The notes below the pieces were generated by a model that saw only the letters and a list, made by a program, of their open reading frames with translations, searched no databases and was not told the origin of the DNA. 64,000 nucleotides of DNA, from NCBI GenBank assembly GCA_028277105.1, contig JANQHO010000008.1:1-64000 (forward strand). The letters are read 5' to 3'. Source of the DNA: Owenweeksia sp. Its GTDB lineage: Bacteria > Bacteroidota > Bacteroidia > Flavobacteriales > Schleiferiaceae. Position numbers and translations under genes: made by a program. Positions 411 to 6,660 of the stretch are shown here, one piece after another. Positions within the stretch are counted from its first letter, which is position 1, and the number at the start of each line of letters is the position of its first letter.

Positions 411-434
411 CTGCCATCATGAATAGATAAGAAT

Positions 435-442
435 TATGTTTA
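435..442 (+). promoter_or_regulatory. -7 element ahead of the structured leader
   Basis: TATGTTTA matches the Bacteroidota -7 consensus TAnnTTTG at all but the last base. The nearest TTTG is at 407-410, 24 bp upstream, which is longer than the usual 19-21. Transcription from this box would begin at about 447-450, exactly where the structured element starts. Confidence 0.45.
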
Positions 443-446
443 CCAC

Positions 447-535
447 GAGCGCCACCTTTGTTCTAGTAGTCCCCCGACCAAGGGTATAGCATTGGGCTAT
501 ACCTAGTCATTAGCGCTCTATTTTTTCTTTTTTCA
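447..535 (+). ncRNA. putative structured leader RNA or small RNA upstream of the MATE gene
   Basis: GAGCGC (447-452) pairs perfectly with GCGCTC (513-518) and closes a roughly 70-nt domain. Inside it, GGTATAGC (483-490) pairs with GCTATACC (496-503) around a 5-base loop. The 30 nt between the two 5' strands include an unpaired C-rich stretch (471-475). The closing stem is followed by a T-rich run (519-535), so the element could end in a terminator. It lies 20-110 bp before a MATE exporter start. It could be a riboswitch-like leader, an independent small RNA, or chance pairing. I could not match it to a known riboswitch class by eye, and it lacks tRNA features. Confidence 0.4.
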
Positions 536-556
536 ATTACATAATTCTTTTTTCAA

Positions 557-4133: not shown

Positions 4134-4703
4134 GTGCCCAAAAAAATTCGCTGCCAATGGGTCAATGATGACCCTTTATACATAAATTACCACGATAAAG
4201 AGTGGGGTGTACCGGTAAAGGACGATCGCAAAATGTTTGAATTCCTGATACTGGAAACTTTCCAGGCCGGTCTAAGTTGGTATACTATTCTCAAAAAAAG
4301 GGAAAACTTCCGGGAGGCATTTGACAGCTTCAATTACAATAAGATAGCCCGGTATGGAGAAAGCAAAAAGCAGGAGCTACTGCAAAATACTAGTATTATT
4401 CGCAATCGCCTCAAAATTGAAGCAGCTATAAATAACGCCCAAAGGTTTATGGAGGTACAGAAAGAATGTGGCTCTTTTTGTAATTACTTATGGGAATTCG
4501 TAAACCACAAACCCGTCCGGAATCAATGGAAAAGAATGAAAGACGTTCCCTCAAAGACAGAACTATCGGACAAGATCAGCAAAGACTTGAAAAAAAGAGG
4601 GTTTAAATTTGTTGGGTCAACCACCATCTATGCCCATATGCAGGCATGTGGTATGGTAAACGACCATACTACCGATTGCTTCCGCTACTCAGAATTGGCT
4701 TAG
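4134..4703 (+). CDS. tag: DNA-3-methyladenine glycosylase I
   Basis: The 189-residue protein is full length for Tag, a base-excision repair enzyme that removes 3-methyladenine from alkylated DNA. The zinc-binding residues of the family are present: Cys7 and His20 near the N-terminus and the His and Cys of NDHTTDCFRY near the C-terminus. Glu41 in ILETFQAGLSW matches the residue that recognises the base. The start is GTG at 4134, set by the conserved N-terminus KKIRCQWVNDDPLYINYHD and by the promoter just upstream. The stop overlaps the stop of the convergent tsaB by 4 bp, so the two transcripts must run into each other or end within the neighbouring gene. Confidence 0.95.
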   Translation: MPKKIRCQWVNDDPLYINYHDKEWGVPVKDDRKMFEFLILETFQAGLSWYTILKKRENFREAFDSFNYNKIARYGESKKQELLQNTSIIRNRLKIEAAINNAQRFMEVQKECGSFCNYLWEFVNHKPVRNQWKRMKDVPSKTELSDKISKDLKKRGFKFVGSTTIYAHMQACGMVNDHTTDCFRYSELA

Positions 4704-5392
4704 AGGTGCTTTTTGGGCTTACCTGCTATAAAATCTTTTAGGTAATAAGGCTCAAAATAGGCCAGGTCTTCAAATTTTTGCTGCTGAAAAGCATAATAAG
4801 CCAGGTGAATCATATCAACCGCTGAGGGCATTAATAATCCTCCATTTATAAAACGGGAATCAGCAGAAAGCATCTCCAGGCTTTTAGCAGCACCATCACC
4901 TATCAAATGAATTTTTTTGGCATTGATCTCAGAAAACGAACCTTCCTCAATCACTTCAGCTTGTACTTCTGTTATTGCTTTCCCCGTATTACTGTACAAG
5001 GCACAATAAACTTCCATTCTACGGGCATCCAGCATAGGAATAATAAATTCCCCATTGTTTAGAGTTCTTTTACTGAGGTAGCCTTGTACCAAAACATCAA
5101 GGGTATTTATGGCTATTAAGGGCAGTTGTAAGGCGTAACAAAAACCCTTGGCGGCAGAAACACCTATCCTCAATCCCGTGTAAGATCCCGGCCCCTTGCT
5201 TACCGCTACAGCTGATAGTTCTTCCTTCTTCTTACCGGAATCAATAAAAACTTGCTGAATAAAAACGTGGAGTTTTTCTGAATGCAGGTATTGATCGCTA
5301 CTCAGCTCTTTAATAGCTAAAAGCTCATTTTTCCAACTAAGACTGACCGAACAATTTTTGGTAGAAGTTTCAAGGCACAGGATCAGGGCCAT
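4700..5392 (-). CDS. tsaB: tRNA threonylcarbamoyladenosine biosynthesis protein TsaB
   Basis: The 230-residue protein matches TsaB (YeaZ), the scaffold partner of TsaD in the t6A modification of ANN-decoding tRNAs. It starts with the ASKHA-type first strand (ILCLETSTKNCSVSL) and contains the family motif SKGPGSYTGLRIGVSAAKG (around 65-83). The C-terminal half is more divergent, as usual. The start codon overlaps the stop of the upstream adaptor gene in TGATG, so translation is probably coupled. It is the last gene of the tolC-macA-tsaB string and ends against tag on the other strand. Its link to an efflux pump has no obvious functional meaning. Confidence 0.93.
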   Translation of the reverse strand: MALILCLETSTKNCSVSLSWKNELLAIKELSSDQYLHSEKLHVFIQQVFIDSGKKKEELSAVAVSKGPGSYTGLRIGVSAAKGFCYALQLPLIAINTLDVLVQGYLSKRTLNNGEFIIPMLDARRMEVYCALYSNTGKAITEVQAEVIEEGSFSEINAKKIHLIGDGAAKSLEMLSADSRFINGGLLMPSAVDMIHLAYYAFQQQKFEDLAYFEPYYLKDFIAGKPKKHL

Positions 5393-6660
5393 CAGTCTTT
5401 CTTTTCCTCACTTACATGATTTATCCGGTCTCCGTTTTTAAGCTGCTTGCTTACGGTATTGTATGGCCCGGTAATAACTTTTTGTCCTTCGTCCAGTCCC
5501 TCTTTTATTTCTATGCGCTCATCATCTTGAATACCTGTTTTTACTACGCGCAAGCCAGCCTTACCTCCTTGTGAAATAAATACCACTTCGTATTCTTTTT
5601 CGTCCTCCGAATCCTTGGAGGTCATCCTATAGGACTTAGCTTCCTTGCTGGTATCGGTTCTGATGGTTACTGCTTCAATAGGTACCGAAAGCACTCCTGT
5701 TCTCCGGTTAGTCCTGATTTCCACCGAAGCCGTCATACCGGGACGAAAAGGTGTTTCATCATCACCTCCTATCAGGTGGTCATACGAATCTTTCAATACC
5801 CTGATCTTTACCTCAAAATTGGTTACCTGATCTATACTTACACCCTGCAAGTTGGCCGAATTGGCAATTTCAGTCACCAAGCCTTTAAACTCCTCGTCCA
5901 GATAAGCATCCACTTCAATAATTGCGGTATCATTAAGATTAACCCTGATGATGTCATTTTCATTGACCTCTACCAGAACTTCCATATTCTCAAGATTGGC
6001 CAGCCTCATAATCTCGGTACCGGTCATCTGAGCAGTTCCTACTACTCTTTCGCCCACCTCAACATTAAGCATACTGATAGTTCCATCCTGGGGGGCGTAA
6101 ATAGTGGTTCTCGCCAGATTATCCCTGGCTTCGCTATAAGTAGCCTCTGCACTTTCCAGCTGATATTCAGCACTTTTAACATTTAACCGGGCTACATCAA
6201 AAGCTCTTTGTGAAGCATCGAACTCCAGGTCGCTGATTACATTTTGTCCGTGTAGTTTTTTATTGCGCTGATAGTTTTTTTCAGCCTCCAACAGCTGTGC
6301 TTTTGCAGTAGAAAGAGCTGCCTTGGAGCTGTTCACTGTAGCTTTTGTCCTGTTAACCGCAGCAATATATATGTCTGGATTGATACTTACGAGCAGGTCG
6401 CCTTTGGCAACTTTTTGTCCTTCTTCTACCGGTAATTCAATGATCTCTCCCGAAACTTCGGAACTGATCTTCACTTCCACTTCAGGCTGAATTTTTCCAC
6501 TGGCCAATACCGTTTCTACTATAGTTTCCTTTTTTACTTCGCCCAACTCTACCTCATAGCCTTTGTCCTCACCTATCCAGCCTTGCTTTTTGGCGATCAC
6601 CAAAAAAACTATCAGCAATGGAATACCGATGTAAAGCGAATATCTGAGAGGTTTACTCAT
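5392..6660 (-). CDS. efflux periplasmic adaptor subunit (HlyD/MacA family)
   Basis: This 422-residue membrane-fusion protein has one N-terminal transmembrane anchor (about 8-24). A biotinyl-lipoyl half-domain follows (IELPVEEGQKVAKGDLLVSI, about 75-95), then a long alpha-hairpin (about 97-187, rich in Ala, Lys, Glu and Asn). The second lipoyl half (TIYAPQDGTISMLNVEVGER) and beta-barrel regions complete it. Such adaptors connect an inner-membrane pump to a TolC-like channel. The TolC partner lies 4 bp upstream. No MacB, RND or MFS pump is encoded next to it, so the inner-membrane partner must be elsewhere or was lost. MacA-like rather than AcrA-like is suggested by the anchor but is not certain. 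Confidence 0.88.
   Translation of the reverse strand: MSKPLRYSLYIGIPLLIVFLVIAKKQGWIGEDKGYEVELGEVKKETIVETVLASGKIQPEVEVKISSEVSGEIIELPVEEGQKVAKGDLLVSINPDIYIAAVNRTKATVNSSKAALSTAKAQLLEAEKNYQRNKKLHGQNVISDLEFDASQRAFDVARLNVKSAEYQLESAEATYSEARDNLARTTIYAPQDGTISMLNVEVGERVVGTAQMTGTEIMRLANLENMEVLVEVNENDIIRVNLNDTAIIEVDAYLDEEFKGLVTEIANSANLQGVSIDQVTNFEVKIRVLKDSYDHLIGGDDETPFRPGMTASVEIRTNRRTGVLSVPIEAVTIRTDTSKEAKSYRMTSKDSEDEKEYEVVFISQGGKAGLRVVKTGIQDDERIEIKEGLDEGQKVITGPYNTVSKQLKNGDRINHVSEEKKD

Follow-up and report, generated by a model that had tools for sequence, protein, structure and literature searches.

A probable tetQ-type translational attenuator with a three-codon leader ORF upstream of a chromosomal MATE exporter gene in Bacteroidota

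Drug-inducible leaders are, to our knowledge, well described in Firmicutes, while the chief case described in Bacteroidota is that of tetQ. A three-residue leader peptide is reportedly essential in the tetQ leader, which is said to contain the hairpins Hp1, Hp2, and Hp8 and to allow its 5' arm to pair alternatively (Hp1 with Hp2). MATE-type exporters are known to be controlled by riboswitches. The tetQ leader of Bacteroides CTnDOT has been reviewed as a translation attenuator (PMC5418344). In the toiL-topAI system of E. coli, tetracycline and retapamulin stall ribosomes at the start codon of the uORF, unmasking the downstream start, and the inducers of vmlR and vga(A) probably stall ribosomes at start codons (PMC12121999).

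Here, we report a putative regulatory element that spans approximately positions 378–557 upstream of a MATE gene in the window, i.e., the whole 64,000-nt stretch of Owenweeksia sp. DNA that was analyzed. Judging from its layout, from modeled folding, and from analogy, this element is likely to be a cis-acting translational attenuator of the tetQ type, in which translation of a mini-ORF probably determines if the exporter start site is accessible or sequestered in the fold. In a search of the open literature, no previous account of this leader came up. The product of the downstream gene matches TIGR00797 with 273.5 bits (cut-off 147.4) and PF01554 with 216.9 bits (cut-off 24.9). The features of the locus are as follows.

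378–381, + strand: −33 promoter element TTTG (sequence; 21 nt upstream of the −7 box; fits the consensus of PMC6847099)
403–410, + strand: −7 promoter element TAATTTTG (sequence; spacing rule of PMC6847099)
419–430, + strand: nearly leaderless mini-ORF ATG AAT AGA TAA (MNR*; three-codon ORF enrichment in orthologues)
429–439, + strand: P1 5' arm, AAGAATTATGT, overlapping the mini-ORF stop codon (minimum-energy fold; covariation; RNAalifold)
436–489, + strand: second short ORF (ORF2), MFTTSATFVLVVPRPRV*, with its stop codon within the hairpin 5' arm (ORF2 in 51/59 KL-type leaders)
447–452, + strand: P2 5' arm, GAGCGC, previously noted as a closing stem (sequence; two-sided changes)
482–504, + strand: hairpin, previously noted as an 8-bp stem (sequence; fold)
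513–518, + strand: P2 3' arm, GCGCTC (sequence; two-sided changes)
519–538, + strand: pyrimidine-rich linker (matching linker in 47 leaders)
539–549, + strand: P1 3' arm, ACATAATTCTT, inside the MATE translation-initiation region (fold; covariation; RNAalifold)
557–1963, + strand: MATE family efflux transporter, 468 aa, the gene proposed to be regulated (TIGR00797 and PF01554 above cut-off)

The neighboring genes were characterized by sequence. At 2–298 lies the C-terminal end of a protein, terminating in GMYLLNLTANGQQQTIKIMK, that resembles a type IX secretion sorting domain. The MATE gene is followed downstream by a probable DNA-3-methyladenine glycosylase I (4134–4703), a probable TsaB-like protein (4700–5392), and a probable periplasmic adaptor of an efflux system (5392–6660).

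The promoter consensus of Bacteroidota is TTTG/TANNTTTG, with 4–5 nt between the −7 element and the transcription start (PMC6847099). When this spacing rule is applied to the −7 box at 403–410, the transcription start is expected at about 415–416, that is, 3–4 bases before the mini-ORF. The initial annotation had placed a −7 box at approximately 436–443 (TATGTTTA); that candidate lacks the G that is nearly invariant in TANNTTTG, is not kept among orthologues, and was dropped in favor of 378–410, which has the full TAATTTTG with TTTG 21 nt upstream.

As in tetQ, a three-codon leader ORF (MNR*, 419–430) lies near the inferred transcription start, beginning 8 nt past the −7 box. Orthologues of the MATE protein were gathered from the own family, order, and class and from Flavobacteriaceae, and 279 non-redundant upstream regions were read. 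The entries L004 and L003 are the counterparts of L032 and L033, which come from Owenweeksia sp. and Cryomorphaceae MAGs. TTTG is followed by an ORF of precisely three codons in 87 of 134 orthologues with at least 62% identity (65%), in 10 of 45 at 55–62% identity, and in 3 of 99 (3%) below 55%, compared with 5 of 174 (3%) upstream regions of other genes that served as a control. The encoded peptides are mostly MKL, MIV, and MIA, with MK, MKY, MNR, and MNL also observed, and the distance between TTTG and ATG is 7–8 nt in all 50 KL-type leaders measured, the type to which the window belongs. Similar mini-ORFs occur in Saprospiraceae, Chitinophagaceae, and even some contigs titled Acidobacteria; they are absent from Chryseobacterium-like genomes and several others among the relatives read. 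Five leaders (L003, L239, L243, L244, and L277) have a good P1 and no mini-ORF ATG, which counts against the attenuator reading.

The initial annotation had described both inner stems, which form the core of the element, and had overlooked the two short ORFs (419–430 and 436–489) as well as the outer 11-bp stem. The inner stems are as claimed: GAGCGC at 447–452 pairs with GCGCTC at 513–518, GGTATAGC at 483–490 forms a perfect 8-bp hairpin with GCTATACC at 496–503, and a T-rich tract directly follows the closing stem. Both are nested inside P1, a perfect stem of 11 bp (429–439 with 539–549) that is present in the minimum-energy fold of the window and whose 3' arm stops 7 nt short of the MATE start codon (557). 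Thus, as in tetQ, a stem joins the end of the mini-ORF to the start region of the gene. The fold of 447–530 has z = −2.6 and that of the whole leader (415–560) z = −3.2, with 2 of 200 shuffles folding as well in each case.

Comparison of 47 KL-type leaders revealed two-sided changes at 6 of 12 pairs of P1 (e.g., GC in 22 and AU in 13 leaders at one pair, GC in 22 and AU in 21 at another) and at all 8 pairs of P2. None of 500 shuffles attains the observed value on any of five whole-structure measures, and in slid controls the paired fraction drops from 79.5% to at most 46.6%. RNAalifold predicts P1 without structure input, and the KL-type P1 arms pair better with their own partner than with most swapped partners. 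Hence the proposal that the MATE gene has a structured 5' leader is supported, and it also withstands the refutation test suggested with it, since the element is present at orthologous loci and its stems carry compensatory changes. On the other side, the IV-type leaders have a covarying downstream hairpin, while their P1 is weak and variable, and this counts against the attenuator reading.

The same data bear on the suggestion that the locus encodes a free-standing small RNA of 75–90 nt ending near 530. A GC-rich block followed by a T-rich tract would fit such an RNA; however, the covarying P1 bridges the proposed 3' end and reaches the MATE start, to which the element is always fused, and a simple terminator scan of 300–700 called no intrinsic terminator. 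We consider this reading extremely unlikely.

The T-rich tract also raises transcription attenuation, in which P2, the hairpins, and the tract would form a terminator blocked by a ribosome on the mini-ORF or ORF2. Leader-peptide versions of this mechanism are known for other resistance genes (PMC5418344); the tract directly follows P2 in most leaders, and a run of at least five T is found within 14 nt in 23 of 47. The pyrimidine-rich linker, in turn, consists of 58% T, 24% C, and 2% G across the 47 leaders. Nevertheless, the scan that called no site between 300 and 700 argues against a terminator, P2 has just 6–8 bp and encloses about 60 nt, and the conserved P1 extends beyond the T tract and takes in the MATE start region, for which a terminator would have no use. 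Attenuation of transcription is unlikely in our judgment.

A DNA search with 430–545 found no copy in 40 relatives, because the leader interior diverges fast; instead of by DNA similarity, leaders were traced through the orthologous MATE genes. In its own genome the element is single-copy, and this ruled out a repeat or mobile element as its identity. A covariance model of the leader was run against 88 genomes from the own family and 150 from Flavobacteriaceae. Matches at E < 1e-3 were located solely directly upstream of the MATE gene, including in one genome not used before; many of them are the training sequences of the model, and the result thus speaks for the absence of other targets and not as independent confirmation. 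No wider regulon emerged: the covariance model pointed to no gene other than MATE in these 88 and 150 genomes, and within the own genome a promoter followed by a three-codon ORF occurs at 20 places, compared with 32 in a backward control. Among these places, a good P1 and an intergenic position are combined in the MATE leader only.

The initial annotation could match the element to no RNA class, and an Rfam search bears this out: the window has no gathering-level match, and even at E = 10 one chance match only (E = 7). This weighs against the view that a metabolite- or drug-binding riboswitch senses the substrate of the exporter. Such RNAs do occur upstream of MATE-type exporters, the P2-P3-P4 region is junction-like, and P2 is partly conserved in Flavobacteriaceae. 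However, the alignment shows no conserved unpaired core, the interior being almost unconstrained in sequence, and the strongest conservation is that of P1 and of the promoter-proximal three-codon ORF at fixed spacing. A riboswitch is thus very improbable.

We return to the translational attenuator of the tetQ type, whose function we infer from the layout of the MATE leader: the promoter would let the mRNA begin just a few bases ahead of the three-codon ORF, and P1, with P2 and the hairpins between its arms, joins the end of this ORF to the bases immediately preceding the MATE start codon. Without drug, ribosomes would read the mini-ORF and leave, allowing P1 to form and close the exporter start site. 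A tetracycline, a pleuromutilin, or some other compound that inhibits initiation or early elongation would hold a ribosome at the start codon or the first codons of the mini-ORF, where its footprint of about 16–18 nt would cover the P1 5' arm. P1 could then not form, the MATE start region would be single-stranded, and the exporter would be made. In F. johnsoniae, mRNA structure near the start is known to tune initiation (PMC6847099).

Folding predictions for the window are consistent with this scheme. Removal of 415–438 is predicted to abolish P1, and 439–560 folded alone leaves 519–560 unpaired. A ribosome block on the mini-ORF raises the predicted unpaired probability of positions −20 to +3 at the MATE start from 0.32 to 0.76; across 68 KL-type leaders, the mean predicted value for this region goes up from 0.38 to 0.68, and the same block modeled on the tetQ leader raises it from 0.24 to 0.48. 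Two further considerations count against the attenuator reading. Firstly, a normally translating ribosome would also cover P1 briefly. Secondly, in Flavobacterium leaders the block changes the predicted openness from 0.68 to 0.61 or 0.51, i.e., the start region is not opened, and hence these leaders would have to follow another pairing logic. Since the block is predicted not to open the start in them, a ribosome that stalls at the start codon may have the opposite effect to one that reaches the stop codon.

Twelve Flavobacterium leaders share a mini-ORF MIVSA* and three mutually pairing segments, namely AATCCTA at the mini-ORF stop, TTAGGATA, and TATCCTAA before the MATE ATG. Other variants were also observed. 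In four leaders the mini-ORF is lengthened to 6–7 codons through the P1 5' arm (MKFVELY*, MELTEL*, MKLTELY*, and MSTPRLS*), and ORF2 is gone. Leader L338 (G326:C14), which belongs to the same gene as L073, has an extra 100–150 nt or so between a KL-type leader, with an MKL*-like 5' part, and the MATE start, and the P1 arms appear to be kept at both ends. In three contigs titled Acidobacteria, the leader of a related MATE gene has the short ORFs MKLLVC*, MKISVR*, and MKFIVR* in its 5' part, possibly representing the same design outside Bacteroidota.

ORF2, whose first codon in the window lies within P1 and whose last lies within the hairpin, may act as an additional sensor or be a by-product. 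Of 59 KL-type leaders, 51 carry this ORF; its length is 13 codons in 30 of them, and its consensus is M[FLY]xIDV[IT]GxxP[KN][KN]. It might be supposed that this ORF of about 13 codons is the real drug-sensing arrest peptide and that the mini-ORF merely delivers ribosomes to it. The frequency of its ATG, the recurring length, and the shared consensus favor this, as do several indels that are multiples of three and two leaders that are without the ATG, yet preserve the frame by an overlapping ATGA start. On the other hand, conservation of the three codon positions (0.54, 0.55, and 0.42) leaves the third just slightly less conserved, and synonymous changes (20 of 72, against 23% by chance) are in no clear excess in a frame whose overlap with P2 may account for the conservation. 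Moreover, ORF2 is missing in the IV-type and some KL-type leaders. In tetQ, the longer leader ORFs are reportedly dispensable. We regard this explanation as improbable.

For the attenuator as a whole we offer a broader proposal, tentative and less likely than not: the MATE leaders might represent a widespread chromosomal class in Bacteroidota, in which a nearly leaderless ORF of 2–7 codons needs no stalling peptide and senses any start-codon inhibitor, the 13-codon ORF2 of the KL type acting in series as a second, peptide-specific sensor, such that one exporter answers several drug classes. A conserved chromosomal leader of the tetQ design on a multidrug exporter in many genera would make such sensing native to the phylum and not a peculiarity of one mobile element. 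For bacteria that initiate translation without Shine-Dalgarno sequences, the leader would also provide a natural reporter of translation-start inhibitors, and substrates of the exporter could be found by asking which drugs induce it.

The MATE leader can be compared with several known systems. Guanidine and other riboswitches before MATE-type exporters are likewise leader RNAs ahead of a MATE gene, whereas the present leader is ORF-based and has neither an Rfam match nor a conserved aptamer core. In translational attenuators of the ermC/cat type and in the uORF leaders of vmlR and vga(A), an antibiotic-stalled ribosome on a short ORF refolds the mRNA and turns on a resistance gene; these systems differ in their longer leader peptides and Firmicutes signals, vmlR acts by transcription attenuation, and none controls a MATE exporter. 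As in toiL-topAI, the uORF pairs with the downstream start region, but toiL is a longer ORF with a Shine-Dalgarno sequence and controls a toxin-antitoxin operon, whereas the nearly leaderless MATE mini-ORF mostly has three codons.

The closest likeness in layout is to the leader of tetQ-rteA-rteB from CTnDOT, which reads, in two genomes, TAATTTTG TAATCGTT ATG CGG CAG TAA TAATATAC ... GTATATTATT GCTTAATCCAA ATG. Both have the −7 box TAATTTTG, 8 nt, and a three-codon ORF (MRQ* in tetQ), followed by a P1 (10 bp in tetQ, 11 bp in the window) that runs from the mini-ORF end to just before the gene start codon, with hairpins between; the distance from ATG to ATG is 126 nt in tetQ and 138 nt in the window. 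The two leaders show no visible sequence similarity, and tetQ is a tetracycline ribosomal-protection gene on a mobile element, in contrast to the chromosomal MATE exporter. As the gene downstream is a MATE exporter and not tetQ on a conjugative element, the leader would work like that of tetQ and is not the tetQ leader itself.
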